From NCBI RefSeq assembly GCF_029478095.1, contig NZ_JAKOAV010000007.1:1-64000 (forward strand): a stretch of DNA of 64,000 nt, written 5' to 3'. Source of the DNA: Pelotomaculum isophthalicicum JI (GTDB lineage: Bacteria; Bacillota; Desulfotomaculia; Desulfotomaculales; Pelotomaculaceae). The notes under the pieces were generated by a model. The model did not search any database. It was not told the origin of the DNA and saw only the letters and a program-made list of their open reading frames with translations. How positions within the stretch are numbered: the first letter of the stretch is position 1; the number at the start of each line of letters is the position of its first letter. Of the stretch, positions 2,141 through 49,985 are shown one piece after another. Made by a program: the position numbers and the translations under genes.

Positions 2141-5100
2141 ATGAAAATACATGATATGTTTCAAAAGGATATTGACAGGCCAATTCAGGGCGTTGTCAAA
2201 ATCGGTCAGAACTCCAATGAAATTATCACGGCGGAACTGGACGAGTATGTCGTGACCAGGGAACTGCATCGCCATTTTGACAAGTTTTTCGAGGGTTACC
2301 GCAAGGGCACGACAACCCGCACTGATAAAATGGGCGTCTGGATTTCCGGTTTCTTTGGCAGCGGCAAATCCCATTTTCTTAAGATACTTTCCTATCTTCT
2401 TTCAAACGACACCTATGACGGCAAAAAGGCTATCAGTTATTTTGACGGAAAGATAGCCGACAGCCGCATTTTGGCGGATATGCAGGTCGCTGCCGATACC
2501 GGCGCGGACGTGGTCCTATTCAATATTGACGCGGAAGCCGATTCGGACTCGAAGACACACAAGGATGCCATTGTCAAGGTTTTCATGAAGGTCTTTAATA
2601 AAATGCGGGGCTTTTGCGGCAGTATGCCGTGGATTGCCGATTTGGAGCGGCAGATGACCAAGGATGGCGTCTATGACAGCTTCCGCGCCCGTTTCAAAGA
2701 GCTTGCGGGGAATGAATGGGAAGACACCCGCGAGGATTTCTATTTCGAAGAGGACAATATCGTTCAGGCGCTTGCCGATACAACGAAGATGAGCGTTGAC
2801 GCCGCGCGGAACTGGTACAACAAATCCGAGGAAAACTATTCTTTGGATATCAACGGATTTGCGAGGCGGGTGCGGGAATACATAGAAGCGAAGTCAAAGG
2901 AAACAGGCAAAAAGCATTTTGTCATCTTCCTTTGCGACGAGATTGGGCAGTACATCGGCAGCGACAGCGGCCTGATGCTGAATTTGCAGACTGTCGTGGA
3001 GAGTCTGGGCACGGAATGCGGCGGACAGGCTTGGGTCATAGCAACAAGCCAGCAGGATATAGACTCTATCACCAAAGTGGATAGAGATAACTTCTCTAAA
3101 ATTATCGGGCGATTTGACACAAGGCTTTCCCTTTCCTCCGCCAACGTAGACGAAGTTATCAAAAAGAGGCTGCTTGCCAAGACAGACACGGCGGCGGACA
3201 AGCTGCGCCTTTTATATGCCGGGAAAGCCGCCGTTATCAAAAACTTGATTTCCTTTTCTTCTTCTGACACACCGGAGAAGAGGCTGTACAGTTCCGCAGA
3301 GGAATTTGTGGACGTGTATCCTTTTATCCCGTATCAGTTCAACCTGCTGCAAGCGGTGTTCACGGGCATCCGAACCCACGGCGCGTCCGGCAAGCATCTG
3401 TCTGAAGGAGAACGCTCTTTGCTCAACGCCTTCCAAGAGGCGGCGGTTCAGTACGCCAATTTCGACGACGGTATTCTCATTCCCTTTGAGGCTTTTTACA
3501 AAACCATTGAGACCTTTTTGGATCACAATATCAAAGCTGTGATTATCAGGGCGGCAGAAAGCGCCGAGTTTGACGACGGGGCCTTGCAGCCCTACGACGT
3601 GGAGGTCTTGAAGGTTCTGTTTATGGTGAAGTACATCCCCAATGTGCTGCCCGCCAACCTCGAAAACATCACCACCGTCATGCTGGGAAATATCGATCAG
3701 GACAAAATTGAGGCTAAAAAACAGGTTGACGCCTCTTTGCGCCGTTTGGAGGAGCAGAAGCTTATCATTAAAAACGGCAATCAATTTATCTTCCTGACAA
3801 ACGAGGAGCAGGACATCAACCGCGAAATACGGGAAATCAAGATTGACACAAGCGAGATCATCGATAAAGTCGGCGACAATATATTCTCCGCCTTGTTTGG
3901 ACTCAATAAAAAATACCGCTATAACGACCGGTATGACTTTTCTTTTAACACAATCATTGACGACAGACCGAGAGGCGCGCAGAAAGAGGAAATCGGCATT
4001 CGGGTGCTGACTCCCATGTATGCCCGTGGTGACGTCGCCGAGCCGGAACTCAAAGCTATGTCCATGCGGGAGAGAAATGTTATTGTCGCGCTTCCTTCCG
4101 ATATGTCCTACATCGACGAGATGGAGCAGGCTCTGCAAATCGAGACGTACATTCGCCGTAACGCCGGCAAGGTGTCCACCGATACGGTGGAGGACATCAA
4201 AACCACCAAAACCCGCGAGGGAAAGCAGCGAGTGGATAGATGCAAGGAGCTTATTTTCGAGGCGCTCAAAAAGGCTGATTTATATGTGAACAGCAATAAG
4301 CTCGATATCAAAGAGAAGCAGCCGTCAGAAAGGATTAACGACGCCTTCAAAACACTGGTGGAAGGTATTTATACAAAGCAAAACTACATCACTAATCCCT
4401 TTTATACCAACGACGACCTGCGGGAAGTTCTCACAGCAAAGGATGCTCAAGTTGTGTCCGGGGGCATGGAGGCCGTCGTTCCCAATCGTCTTGCCATAGA
4501 AGAAATGGAGGATGTTGTTGCCCGCAGCTCATACAAGAACATGCCGACCACCGTGCGCACCCTGATGGATCACTTTAACAAGATCCCCTATGGGTGGAAA
4601 GACATGGACATCGCAGGCATCGTCCTGACACTTTTCAAGAAGCAAGAAATCCGGTTGGAGCTTGGCGGCGAAAACATCTCCACAATCGACATGAATGTGA
4701 TCAACTATGTGACAAAACGAGATTATTTGGATCGAGTCCTTGTGAAAATGCGTGTGAAAATCTCTCCCGCGTTGTTGCAGAACGCCAAAAACCTCGCGAA
4801 AGACGTATTCGGGAGAAGCGATCTGCCCGGTGACGAAGACGGTCTGATGGCGCGCTTTAAGGAGCTTGCTGCCTCCGAGCTTTCCAGAAACGACGGCAGC
4901 ATCAAGGATTTGCTCCATGAATACGACAAGGCGGGATATCCCGGCAAAATCGTTTTGGAAAACGGCAGGAAGCTTTTTGAACAGGCCGATAAAATCAAGG
5001 ACACATCAGCGTTTTACAATTACCTTGCTGAAAAAAAAGACGCCCTCCTTGACTACGAGGAGGATGTGCAGGACGTCAAGAAGTTTTTCAAAAACCAGAA

Positions 5101-28951: not shown

Positions 28952-29115
28952 GGTGTTGCCGCATTGCTCAGTGAAGAGAGAAACGTATTAGCATCAATTG
29001 TTCCATCTGTCGAAGAAATGCTTGAAAGTATAGCGCCATAACAGGCATTCTATAAAACATGGATGGCCGTAGCTCACAAGTTGATAAGAACTACGGCTAT
29101 TTTATTGCTTAGGGG

Positions 29116-29164
29116 CCGAACATGAACCGCGTTGTATACCTAGGTTGCCAAGGCGAATTGGTTC
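29116..29164. repeat. Dispersed intergenic repeat, copy B
   Basis: About 49 bp beginning CCGAACATG, then CCGCGTTGTATACC and ending AAGGCGAATTGGTTC. It matches copy A at 48155-48204 closely and copy C at 32259-32307 more loosely. Confidence 0.6.
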
Positions 29165-29197
29165 TCGATGACGATGCCATTACTATTATTGGGCGAA

Positions 29198-32258: not shown

Positions 32259-32307
32259 AAGAACATGCCTCTAATATGCCCAAAGGTCTCCGTAGGCGAA
32301 TTTGTCC
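32259..32307. repeat. Dispersed intergenic repeat, copy C
   Basis: It shares GAACATGCC, TATGCCCAAA and TAGGCGAATTTGTCC with copies at 29116 and 48155, but is more diverged in the middle. It fills the only spacer inside the TRAP-ligase operon, between dctM and the CoA ligase. Confidence 0.5.
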
Positions 32308-46186: not shown

Positions 46187-46216
46187 GTTTACTTAACTGA
46201 TTAATGGCCATAATAA
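46187..46216 (+). promoter_or_regulatory. Possible forespore (SigF/SigG) promoter
   Basis: GTTTA (46187-46191), 17 bp, CATAATAA (46209-46216) resembles the forespore sigma pattern. It precedes a winged-helix gene and a spore germination gene, which would normally be expressed in the forespore. Assignment rests on resemblance and context. Confidence 0.4.
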
Positions 46217-46246: not shown

Positions 46247-46516
46247 ATGACTACAACATTAGTTGAATACTTCGGCGGAGTGCAAAATCGTCTCCCGGAA
46301 GAGGCGGAAAGAGTAATTAAAACACTTGAAGAAGAAGGTCCCATGAACAAAGAAGAACTTTCACTGACCGCTAAGGTCAAAAGGGCTGTTCTGGATCACA
46401 TTGTAATGCAGCTTTATGCTCTTGGACTGGTGGACGTGGCGACAGAAGGCAAGAGCAAAATGTGCAGTCTCACCAAACTCGGGTATGATTTTCTTAAACT
46501 GAAGGATGCTGTTTAA
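46247..46516 (+). CDS. Small winged-helix protein
   Basis: An 89-residue protein with AAAGGAG upstream of the ATG. A winged-helix fold is suggested by RVIKTLEEEGPMNKEELS, VKRAVLDHIVMQLYALGLVDV and a wing MCSLTKLGYDFL, similar to MarR/ArsR-type transcription factors but shorter. It is 33 bases upstream of the spoVAF-like gene and probably co-transcribed. Confidence 0.6.
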   Translation: MTTTLVEYFGGVQNRLPEEAERVIKTLEEEGPMNKEELSLTAKVKRAVLDHIVMQLYALGLVDVATEGKSKMCSLTKLGYDFLKLKDAV

Positions 46517-46549
46517 CGGCATATTTAAATGCGATGGGAGTTGGTACAG

Positions 46550-48097
46550 GTGCCCCGGAACGCGGATATGAAAAAAGAACAAGAAAAAACAAGAATCAGT
46601 AAGGATTTAAAAGAAAATATCAAGCTCCTGGACGCGGAAATAGGGATTGAAAAAAGTTTTGATATTCTCACCAGGGAACTGGTCATTGGCGGCAAAAATG
46701 TTACCTTGCTTTTCGTGGACGGTCTAACTAATGATCAGATTGTGACAATCGTTCTTCGTAATCTGACCAGTCTCGATTATGCGGACATGCATCCGGAAAG
46801 TATCAAAAAATTATTTAAAAACTATCTTGGTTACACTGAAGTGGATGAAGTACAATATCTTGAGGATGTTGTCAATAAAGTGCTGGCGGGTCCCCTGGCC
46901 ATATTTGTAGAGGGATCGGATAAAGCTATAATTATGGATGCCAGGATCTACCCCATCCGCAGTCCTGAGGAACCGGACCTGGAAAGGGTTGTGCGGGGTT
47001 CCAGGGACGGCTTTGTTGAAACCCTGGTCTTTAATACCGCTTTAATCAGGAGGCGGATCAGGGACCCCAAATTGCGCATGGAATATATCCAGGTAGGTAC
47101 CCGGTCCAAATCCGATATAATAGTTTGCTACATTGAAGATATAGCCAACCCCGATCTGGTGCAAAGCATAAAGGATAAAATAGAATATATCAAGATTGAC
47201 GGTATCCCGATGGGTGAAAAATCGGTGGAGGAGTTGATTACTCCGGGTTCTTACTGGAACCCTTTCCCAAAGGTGCGCTATACTGAAAGGCCGGACGTGG
47301 CTGCCATGCACCTGCTGGAAGGGCATGTGCTGGTGCTGGTGGATACCTCCCCCAGTGTCATTATCGCCCCGGCCACATATTTTCACCACTTGCAGCATGC
47401 CGAGGAATACCGCCAGAATCCCACTGTCGGAGCTTACCTGCGCTGGGTGCGGTTCGTCGGTGTTGCGGCGTCTATATTTTTGCTGCCGCTCTGGTTTCTG
47501 TTTGCGAACAATCCGGAGCTGCTGCCGCCGCAGCTGGCTTTTATCGGAGTGAGCAAACCCGGCGAGATAGCGCTGATCTGGCAGTTCGTGCTGGCTGAGA
47601 TTGCCATAGATATGATCAGGCTGGCTACCATTCATACGCCGGCGGCTCTGGCGACATCCACAGGCATCATCGCGGCGCTGTTGATCGGAGAGCTGGCCAC
47701 CAGAGTGGGGCTTTTCTCCCAGGAAGTGGTTTTATACGTGGCCGTAGCGGCAGTCGGCACTTTTTTGACGCCCAGCATTGAAATGGCCAACGCCAACCGG
47801 CTGGTGCGGCTGGGATTGATCATCATGACCGCGCTGTTCCGGGTGCCGGGCTTTGTAATTGGAGTCGTCGCCACTTTTGTGGCTTTAGCGCTGAATAAAT
47901 CATTCGGAGTGCCTTACCTTTGGCCGCTGGTGCCTTTAAACGCAAAAGCGCTAAGCGGGGTCCTGGTGCGGACGCCGGTTTCCATGCGCAATACCAGGCC
48001 GAGCGTTTTGAAGCCCATCGACCGTGACCGTCAGGTCACCGCCGCTCCAGCCCGTAAGCCTCTTAACCGGAGTAAAAACGGGGAAAAAAAAGGTTAG
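46550..48097 (+). CDS. SpoVAF/GerA-family spore germination protein
   Basis: A 515-residue protein. GTG at 46550 is chosen (GGGAG about nine bases upstream); an ATG at 46529 lacks a ribosome site. A soluble N-terminal domain (about 1-270, including YIEDIANPDLV and IPMGEKSVEELI) is followed by the GerA-A membrane region: PTVGAYLRWVRFVGVAASIF, then about five membrane segments. Length and the RNTRPSVLKPIDRDRQ tail fit SpoVAF, a GerA-A paralogue in the spore inner membrane linked to dipicolinate release. The other spoVA genes are not in this window. It ends at a strong terminator. Confidence 0.82.
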   Translation: MPRNADMKKEQEKTRISKDLKENIKLLDAEIGIEKSFDILTRELVIGGKNVTLLFVDGLTNDQIVTIVLRNLTSLDYADMHPESIKKLFKNYLGYTEVDEVQYLEDVVNKVLAGPLAIFVEGSDKAIIMDARIYPIRSPEEPDLERVVRGSRDGFVETLVFNTALIRRRIRDPKLRMEYIQVGTRSKSDIIVCYIEDIANPDLVQSIKDKIEYIKIDGIPMGEKSVEELITPGSYWNPFPKVRYTERPDVAAMHLLEGHVLVLVDTSPSVIIAPATYFHHLQHAEEYRQNPTVGAYLRWVRFVGVAASIFLLPLWFLFANNPELLPPQLAFIGVSKPGEIALIWQFVLAEIAIDMIRLATIHTPAALATSTGIIAALLIGELATRVGLFSQEVVLYVAVAAVGTFLTPSIEMANANRLVRLGLIIMTALFRVPGFVIGVVATFVALALNKSFGVPYLWPLVPLNAKALSGVLVRTPVSMRNTRPSVLKPIDRDRQVTAAPARKPLNRSKNGEKKG

Positions 48098-48101
48098 AAG
48101 A

Positions 48102-48127
48102 AAAAAACCCCCTTAAGGGGGTTTTTT
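48102..48127. terminator. Terminator after the germination gene
   Basis: AAAAAACCCCC (48102-48112), TTAA, GGGGGTTTTTT (48117-48127): a perfect 11-bp stem with T-tract. Confidence 0.9.
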
Positions 48128-48154
48128 AGTGCCGGCTTGAACAATTATATGGGG

Positions 48155-48204
48155 CCGAACATGCCGCGTTGTATGCCCAAAAACCGCCAAAGGCGAATTT
48201 GTTC
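48155..48204. repeat. Dispersed intergenic repeat, copy A
   Basis: Begins CCGAACATGCCGCGTTG and ends AAAGGCGAATTTGTTC. It matches copy B (29116-29164) and partly copy C (32259-32307). Here it immediately precedes the promoter of the structured RNA. Confidence 0.6.
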
Positions 48205-48213
48205 TGTTATAAT
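48205..48213 (+). promoter_or_regulatory. Extended -10 promoter of the structured RNA region
   Basis: TGTTATAAT (48205-48213) is an extended -10 with consensus TATAAT and the upstream TG. No good -35 is seen. It points towards the hairpin-rich region starting at about 48310. Confidence 0.5.
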
Positions 48214-48231
48214 AATGATGAGGTGATTTGA

Positions 48232-48330
48232 TTGATAACCAAAGAATTGGTAGATGGGACCATTCAAGGAATGAAATACCTCGAATTAAAACCGGCGCCA
48301 TGGACAAAATACAACCATAAGGGTTCGTAA
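48232..48330 (+). CDS. Possible 32-residue leader peptide
   Basis: TTG at 48232 is five bases behind GAGGTGA. The frame reads ITKELVDGTIQGMKYLELK, then PAPWTKYNHKGS and stops at 48330, within the first hairpin of the structured RNA (48310-48329). The composition looks coding, but no relative is known to me. It could be a stump of a longer gene or a translated leader that affects folding of the RNA. Confidence 0.35.
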   Translation: MITKELVDGTIQGMKYLELKPAPWTKYNHKGS

Positions 48331-48722
48331 TGGCCGAGCCCAGGCTGTTACAGGGTCAAAAGGCTCTGTAATGGCCGGCCAAAGGTTGATGCCGGGTCTA
48401 AAAAGGTTCGGTATCAGCCGGAGGGCAGACTGGTAAGTGTTCCGGCAGGCTTTATAGCAGTCGAAAACGATTGCTATGAGGTCGTAAGGGATATTTACTG
48501 GTCGAGCTAAGATTATCATGGGTGCCGGATACATTTAACTATATTTGTTGATGTGAGGTTTGTAACAGTCGAAAGATTGTTGCAGGCTTCCTAGGTATCC
48601 ATGATAGTCGAACAAAGGTCATTATAGGTTTCGTAATGGTTCTCGGCAGTCGAAAGATTGTTCTGGGCTACGCAGAAATTTATAATGGCTGTAGTGTAGT
48701 TCATTGCGGGCTCTTTATAAAT
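48310..48722 (+). ncRNA. Large structured RNA of unassigned class
   Basis: A string of hairpins fills this region. Helices (all paired if G-U is allowed): 48343-48357 with 48362-48376 (loop AAAA), 48384-48398 with 48405-48419, 48448-48463 with 48468-48483 (loop AAAA), 48555-48570 with 48575-48590 (loop GAAA), and a long-range helix, 48511-48526 with 48594-48609. That last helix encloses the previous hairpin plus a smaller one (48531-48554), giving a three-way junction. Together these five helices have 78 pairs, 21 of them G-U, and no mismatch. Weaker hairpins are at 48310-48329, 48637-48670 and 48678-48722. On the other strand the 21 wobbles would be A-C clashes, so the RNA is read left to right. 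It is not recognised as tmRNA, RNase P, SRP, 6S, OLE, GOLLD or ROOL. Confidence 0.75.
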
Positions 48723-48765
48723 GTAAGAAACCTTCCTCTTAATGAGGAAGGTTTCTTACATTTAT
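48717..48765. repeat. 22-bp perfect palindrome
   Basis: Arms 48717-48738 and 48744-48765, loop TTAAT, with core GAAACCTTCCTC / GAGGAAGGTTTC. No T-run follows on either side, so a plain terminator is not certain. Its left arm shares 48717-48722 with the last hairpin of the structured RNA, so the two folds exclude each other. Confidence 0.7.
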
Positions 48766-48824
48766 GGCAGGAGTAGCATAAGGGTGAGCAGGTAATTATA
48801 TCTAACTGAAATAGTGGTTTACGA

Positions 48825-48853
48825 TTGACAATAATTATTTGCCATGCTAAGAT
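48825..48853 (+). promoter_or_regulatory. SigA promoter of mnmA
   Basis: TTGACA (48825-48830), 17 bp, TAAGAT (48848-48853), with TG one base before the -10. Confidence 0.85.
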
Positions 48854-48899
48854 GATCGCATAAACCCTACTAATATACTTTGTTTTAGGGGGCTTTTTA

Positions 48900-49985
48900 T
48901 TGATTAAAAAAAAGGTTTTCGTAGCTATGAGCGGCGGGGTTGACAGTTCTGTCACCGCCGCCCTCCTGTTACAGCAGGGTTATGATGTTATCGGTGTCAC
49001 CATGCAAATATGGGATTCTACCCAAACTGAAGTGGGAGAGGAACATGTCGGCTGCTGTTCACTGGCGGCAGTTGAAGACGCGAGGCGGGTGGCCGGTAAA
49101 CTGGGTATTCCTTATTACGTGATGAATTTTCGTGATATTTTTGAGGAGAAAGTGATCGATTACTTTACCTCCGAATACCTGCGCGGGCGTACGCCCAACC
49201 CTTGCATCGCATGTAACCGGTACATTAAATTTGAGGCGTTACTGGACAAGGCGCTGAATCTGGGAGCCGATTATGTTGCGACCGGGCATTACGCGCGTCT
49301 TGGTTTCAGCGAGAAATACAAGCGATATACGGTTCGCCGTTCGGCCGACCGGAGAAAAGACCAGACATACGTATTGTATGGCCTGACTCAGCGCCAGATT
49401 GCCCATACCCTGATGCCCCTGGGGGAGTACGCCAAGGAGCAAGTGAGAAAAATGGCCGCCGGCTTTGGCCTGCCGGTTGCGGATAAGGCTGACAGCCAGG
49501 AAATTTGTTTTGTCCTTGACGATAACTACCGTGGTTTTTTACAGGGAAAAACAGCGGATATTAAACCTGGTCCGTTTCTGAACCTGAGAGGTGAAGTTAT
49601 CGGAGAGCATAAAGGTATTCCTTTTTATACCATCGGTCAGCGCCGGGGACTGGGCCTGGCGGCGGGGGAACGTCTTTATGTGGTAAATATAGACACTAAT
49701 AATAATACCATTACTTTGGGGCCTGAGGAGGCCATTATGGGTACAGACTTAACAGCGGAAGATGTAAATCTGGTCCTCTATGACGAGTTGACCGGTCCCA
49801 TGGAAATCGAGGCGCAGGTGCGCTACAACGGCAAACCTGCCCCAGCCGCCATGGCGCCATTGCCCGGTGGTGGTGTAAAAGTACACTTTCATACACCGCA
49901 GCGCTCCATTACTCCCGGACAGGCGGTCGTTTTTTACCACGGGGATTGCCTGGTGGGTGGGGCTACCATAGAGAAAAAATTATAA
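48900..49985 (+). CDS. mnmA: tRNA-uridine 2-sulfurtransferase
   Basis: A 361-residue MnmA (TrmU), which thiolates U34 of Lys, Glu and Gln tRNAs using ATP and a sulfur carrier. The TTG at 48900 has AGGGGG eight bases upstream; no ATG fits the family N-terminus. Motifs: PP-loop AMSGGVDSSV near the N-terminus, catalytic Cys in NPCIACNRYIKF (about residue 102), second catalytic Cys in SQEICFV, and YTIGQRRGLG. Complete. A consensus promoter is 45 bases upstream. Confidence 0.95.
   Translation: MIKKKVFVAMSGGVDSSVTAALLLQQGYDVIGVTMQIWDSTQTEVGEEHVGCCSLAAVEDARRVAGKLGIPYYVMNFRDIFEEKVIDYFTSEYLRGRTPNPCIACNRYIKFEALLDKALNLGADYVATGHYARLGFSEKYKRYTVRRSADRRKDQTYVLYGLTQRQIAHTLMPLGEYAKEQVRKMAAGFGLPVADKADSQEICFVLDDNYRGFLQGKTADIKPGPFLNLRGEVIGEHKGIPFYTIGQRRGLGLAAGERLYVVNIDTNNNTITLGPEEAIMGTDLTAEDVNLVLYDELTGPMEIEAQVRYNGKPAPAAMAPLPGGGVKVHFHTPQRSITPGQAVVFYHGDCLVGGATIEKKL

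Follow-up and report, generated by a model that had tools for sequence, protein, structure and literature searches.

A widespread six-armed structured RNA of spore-forming Bacillota with a forespore-type promoter and register-locked wobble pairs

The window analyzed in our study, i.e. the whole stretch of 64,000 nucleotides at the start of contig NZ_JAKOAV010000007.1 of Pelotomaculum isophthalicicum JI, carries on its plus strand a conserved RNA of ~399 nt at positions 48317-48715. Downstream of it lies mnmA on the same strand. The upstream operon encodes a winged-helix-like small protein (46247-46516) and a GerXA/SpoVAF-like protein (46529-48097). This operon has a sigma-F/G-like promoter of its own, GTTTA-N14-GGCCATAATA at 46187-46215, and the RNA thus adjoins another likely forespore unit.

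The limits of the conserved body were derived from BLASTN homologues and from a consensus structure of 51 sequences. The MFE fold of the segment centres on a six-way junction and comprises nine helices of ~16 bp each. Seven of these are unbroken runs of 15-16 bp, together comprising 111 pairs of which 30 are G.U. The junction is closed by P1, in which 48319-48335 pairs with 48699-48715, and this helix as well as the arms described in the following were found both in the MFE fold and in the consensus. P2 (48343-48357/48362-48376) is a hairpin of 15 bp with 4 G.U pairs and an AAAA loop, and P3 (48384-48399/48404-48419) is a hairpin of 16 bp with 5 G.U pairs. The P4 arm (48428-48503) consists of P4a (48428-48443/48488-48503; 16 bp, 5 G.U) capped by P4b (48448-48463/48468-48483; 16 bp, 4 G.U). 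In the P5 arm (48511-48609), P5a (48511-48526/48594-48609; 16 bp, 3 G.U) encloses a variable insert and P5b (48555-48570/48575-48590; 16 bp, 5 G.U, GAAA loop). The P6 arm (48617-48690), which was used for covariance model R1, comprises P6a (48617-48632/48675-48690; 16 bp, 4 G.U) and P6b (48637-48651/48656-48670), an imperfect helix with a GAAA loop.

A previous reading of the bare sequence (hereafter the sequence-only reading) had described five mismatch-free helices covering 78 positions with 21 G-U pairs. These helices are present in the MFE fold with 79 pairs, 21 G.U and no mismatch; P4a, P6a, the imperfect P6b and the closing P1 had been overlooked. The three-way junction proposed at that time exists inside P5a, but the true centre of the RNA is the six-way junction. 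The MFE amounted to about -200 kcal/mol compared with -113 +/- 5.8 kcal/mol in dinucleotide shuffles (z = -15, 0/100). On the antisense strand the MFE of the RNA segment reached only -80 kcal/mol and was therefore far weaker, which shows that the plus strand had been assigned correctly.

By BLASTN, the region 48301-48757 was found in 93 of 150 relatives with ~64-94% identity and 1-3 copies per genome, and similarity beyond the genus of the window began at ~48300. The fold plan is shared by some 59 extracted loci, truncated copies excepted. A MAFFT alignment of 51 homologues formed the basis of the consensus structure, which contains 143 pairs, 107 of them with compensatory change on both sides. 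In this alignment 98.1% of the cells were paired compared with 86.5% in shuffles and 32-41% with partners slid by 1-3 columns; taking the consensus from the same alignment gives it an advantage over the slid controls, but the effect size leaves no real doubt. Cells with two-sided change numbered 900 compared with 212 in shuffles. Since the compensatory changes exceed both shuffled and slid controls, the earlier proposal of a functional large RNA under selection for pairing is supported. A protein-coding reading of either strand was rejected because no frame stays open through any of the 51 homologues, whose lengths are also out of phase with three. Of the short frames upstream of the RNA, none is evidently retained in the sister species.

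When a covariance model built on just the P6 arm was run on 398 genomes sampled evenly over the phylum, it matched 170 of them, representing 118 of the 267 genera. Among the carriers with a name are Pelotomaculum, Desulfoscipio, Desulfotruncus, Desulfovirgula, Sporotomaculum and Moorella sulfitireducens. Given its presence in 118 of 267 genera, the RNA is probably ancient. Moreover, 31 remote copies outside the alignment were folded singly, and 25 of them gave exactly a six-way junction; the modal arm length was 16 bp. The P6 model often matched a second arm in the same genome, e.g. in G144 contig 1 at 108939 and 109118, and as this second match lies at P4-like spacing the arms look like variants of a single module. 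Two MAGs labelled Deltaproteobacteria and Actinobacteria (L090, L097) have the RNA as well; these are probably mislabelled Bacillota.

Rfam 15 (4227 families, gathering cut-off) gave no match in the whole window. The RNA also remained unmatched in 20 remote homologue loci, where the only match, to a c-di-GMP riboswitch, lay in one locus outside the RNA. A permissive Rfam search of 48100-48900 returned sub-threshold matches only, mostly on terminator hairpins. Likewise, the family models of OLE, ROOL and GOLLD did not match the RNA in the window or in the 20 remote loci. The sequence-only reading had placed the RNA outside the known large RNA classes, and the Rfam results bear this out. Among the papers listed by full-text searches of an open-licence library we found no description of this RNA, and we came upon no large structured RNA described as dedicated to the spore. 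The ~400-nt RNA is previously uncatalogued and occurs in about two fifths of the sampled genomes. Its nearest structural precedents are OLE, ROOL and GOLLD, which are likewise large, elaborate and extensively covarying bacterial RNAs. These ornate RNAs form homo-oligomers, ROOL and GOLLD being linked to prophages or phages and OLE having protein partners (PMC12286853). They differ from the RNA in fold and size, and the RNA has no match in Rfam. The raiA motif or ModT RNA, studied in the spore-former C. difficile, is also a conserved structured RNA of Bacillota (PMC11706538), but it is a separate family; the RNA is without an Rfam match.

The G.U pairs follow a fixed register. Counting the base pairs of each arm outward from the junction, we found U.G at bp 3 in a mean of 73% over six arms, G.U at bp 12 in 86% (67-96% per arm) and U.G at bp 14 in 67%, where P5a and P6a deviate. 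The remaining arm positions are mostly Watson-Crick with a few arm-specific wobbles, and none of 20,000 random register shifts reached the observed pattern. Similar values of 74%, 78% and 49% for bp 3, 12 and 14 were obtained from 131 arms of 30 remote homologues, which were folded singly and had not been used in defining the pattern. The outer helices P4b, P5b and P6b keep a register of their own (G.U at 2, U.G at 4, G.U at 13), in P6b offset by one. One turn of an A-form helix comprises 11 bp. Since positions 3 and 14, as well as 2 and 13, are 11 bp apart, the wobbles lie on one face of each helix.

Previously, the wobbles had been explained as a means of avoiding a DNA cruciform. This is disfavoured, as they are fixed at registers 3, 12 and 14 and not scattered; the register-locked wobbles rather point to repeated recognition or tertiary docking. 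The fixed G.U positions also argue against an element acting at the DNA level, such as a cruciform or palindromes for recombination or protein binding, or a mobile element, a reading suggested by the long inverted repeats and by the tandem copies in one genome, to which we give practically no credence. The fold of the antisense strand is far weaker, synteny is conserved within clades and the RNA has its own promoter. Besides, no match to the RNA was found in phage and plasmid records or, by exact-pattern search, in viral contigs, and an origin from phages or plasmids was rejected on these grounds. The tandem copies lie at 2996-3387 and 3504-3894 of a Sporotomaculum syntrophicum contig (L032, also L084), each with a forespore-type promoter.

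Upstream of the RNA the window contains GAATT-N14-GGACAAAATA at 48283-48311. It lies in the aligned promoter region of the 51 homologues and in the window scores 9/10 as a promoter of sigma-F/sigma-G type on the plus strand, with the -35 element GAATT at 48283-48287, a 14-nt spacer, the -10 element GGACAAAATA (consensus GGNNANANTA) at 48302-48311 and a predicted transcription start at ~48318. In the aligned upstream regions nearly all copies have the box GGNNANANTA, typically 3-7 bases upstream of the conserved 5' end, preceded at a spacing of 14-15 bp by an AT-centred -35 element such as GNATA. A promoter score of at least 8/10 was reached by 96% of the 51 copies compared with 2.7% of upstream-slid and 4.5% of shuffled controls, the search taking the best -10 box near the 5' end in copies and controls alike. 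Among 29 remote copies the share was 93% compared with 1.3% in controls, with GTATA-N14-GGACAATATA as an example. We take GNATA-N14/15-GGNNANANTA to be the sigma-F/sigma-G form known from the B. subtilis regulons. The same promoter class was found ahead of SASP genes, which are classical sigma-G targets, in this genome and its relatives, e.g. GCATA-N14-GGCCATAATA. By its GNATA-N14/15-GGNNANANTA motif just upstream, the RNA would belong to the forespore (sigma-F/sigma-G) regulon, a call by consensus match in which sigma-F and sigma-G are indistinguishable. We infer from this motif that the RNA is expressed in the forespore, so that its cell compartment becomes predictable.

The sequence-only reading had instead assigned an extended -10 promoter, a sigma-A feature that lies at ~48205-48212. 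The string is present but not conserved, and the conserved promoter is the one at 48283-48311. A sigma-A promoter was rejected because the string sits at the edge of a dispersed repeat of ~55 bp, upstream of the point where similarity outside the genus starts. This intergenic repeat (GGCCGAACATGAGCCGCGTTGTATGCCCAAAG...TTGTTC) is found in the window at 48150-48205, 29112-29165 and 32261-32305 and has a few dozen BLASTN-detectable copies in the genome. Behind the RNA, a terminator-like perfect hairpin of 22 bp occupies 48717-48765 on the plus strand, followed by a T tract that is weak in the window; a terminator-like hairpin with a T tract lies downstream in 50 of 58 homologues. The hairpin sequence at 48717-48765, AGAAACCTTCCTC..., recurs in the genome and is common to RNA copies of other genera.

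The neighbouring genes differ between clades without any shared neighbour family. A meaning of the setting between a spoVAF-like gene and mnmA, which had been pointed out before, is therefore not supported. In 37 of 55 loci the gene downstream of the RNA is on the opposite strand. A cis-regulatory role towards mnmA or the spoVAF-like gene was rejected, as different genes follow the RNA in different loci, mostly on the other strand. A cis-regulatory leader of mnmA is suggested by the position of this gene in the window, downstream and on the same strand, but it is already contradicted by the neighbour survey and seems hardly conceivable to us. In view of the variable neighbours and the opposite-strand downstream genes, the most fitting reading of the RNA is a gene that stands alone, acts in trans and is vertically inherited.

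The sporulation gene spoIVA is present in 165 of the 170 genomes bearing the RNA. Among the five carriers without spoIVA, four have sigG above the curated cut-off and the fifth is an assembly of 61% completeness. Conversely, 58 of 63 genomes lacking spoIVA also lack the RNA (odds ratio 11, Fisher p ~8e-11, uncorrected for phylogeny). The occurrence of the RNA is nearly restricted to spore-formers. No copy was detectable in about half of the sampled genomes with spoIVA; therefore, sporulation in general does not depend on the RNA, which is a widespread but non-universal trait of spore-formers. As the promoter is of forespore type, the RNA probably helps in the construction or protection of the spore by a putative mechanism discussed below.

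Two forespore sRNAs have already been described in Bacillus. Bvs196 of B. velezensis is an RNA of 294 nt in the hinT-ecsA intergenic region with a reported MFE of -82 kcal/mol that is known only from Bacillus (PMC9147052). It is independently transcribed, specific to the forespore and has a sigma-F/sigma-G promoter and a stable conserved fold, and its deletion led to lower heat and UV resistance of the spores (PMC9147052). Stand-alone transcription, promoter type and a stable conserved fold would be common to both RNAs, and the weakened spores of the deletion make Bvs196 the nearest functional precedent; our RNA differs from it in length (~399 nt) and MFE (about -200 kcal/mol). The HxHxH motif of the HIT family was found in none of the collected proteins neighbouring the RNA. 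CsfG of B. subtilis, a ~136-nt RNA between ylbG and ylbH with C-rich regions resembling RoxS and FsrA, is a proposed base-pairing sRNA (PMC3574147, PMC8216469), and sigma-F/sigma-G control in the forespore would be common to it and our RNA. A CsfG-like regulatory sRNA acting by base pairing would fit this promoter class and compartment (PMC8216469). We nevertheless regard such a function as improbable, since nearly all residues are paired, the loops of P2 and P3 vary and a conserved C-rich seed was not seen in the alignment of 51 sequences. Where CsfG has ~136 nt with C-rich single-stranded stretches, the RNA is an almost fully paired six-arm fold of ~399 nt.

We consider it rather probable that the RNA represents a new class, namely a structural RNA that is produced in the forespore from a gene of its own, acts in trans and serves as a multivalent scaffold with repeated docking faces. 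Transcription would proceed from the sigma-F/sigma-G-consensus promoter, which ends a few bases 5' of the conserved RNA, to the terminator-like hairpin in most copies. The product would be a six-armed star with a helix of ~16 bp per arm and wobbles at 3, 12 and usually 14. With one A-form turn between positions 3 and 14, each arm would display an identical minor-groove face. In the developing spore or the spore core, such a scaffold may dock a single partner in at least six copies. Candidate partners are a spore RNA-binding protein or the RNA itself via GNRA loops and purine-rich linkers, and possible benefits include resistance, packing of ribosomes or the nucleoid, and germination. The basis of the suggested scaffold role is geometry. 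Tentatively, the RNA may be six-fold pseudosymmetric and assemble itself or a protein lattice through its wobble-marked minor-groove faces, which would make it the first RNA dedicated to the architecture of the endospore.

In an RNA-only variant, copies of the RNA would dock to each other through their arms, GNRA loops and purine linkers, and a dimer, a lattice or a cage would arise within the spore core. In line with this homo-oligomer are the register-locked minor-groove faces, the conserved purine linkers and the C-GARA-G tetraloops conserved on P5b and P6b, as well as the precedent of OLE, ROOL and GOLLD (PMC12286853), while the loops of P2-P4 vary in length and sequence, and we hold it to be possible but doubtful. 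Sponge RNAs of the CsrB/RsmY type carry a single binding module repeated many times in GGA loops. By analogy to CsrB/CsrA, the 6-9 near-identical wobble modules per molecule may titrate a regulatory protein or nuclease of the forespore. The modules of our RNA are double-helical wobble registers, whereas CsrB-type RNAs expose single-stranded GGA loops, and no candidate protein was found, so that we judge a sponge unlikely. The RNA could also serve as a nucleotide reserve, i.e. a stable RNA degraded at germination to feed early RNA synthesis, a role thought to be played by spore mRNAs (PMC7649253). A pure reserve needs neither compensatory evolution nor register-locked wobbles, and this function appears very improbable.

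Regarding the scaffold reading, the register-locked G.U pattern is a clear code for repeated docking along an RNA helix, and one that can be tested. The question of non-ribosomal RNA in spores now has a concrete gene to delete, pull down and image. In a few clades the RNA adjoins spoIVA; in L061, L059/L144 and L121, which belong to one family, the two genes are arranged tail-to-tail.
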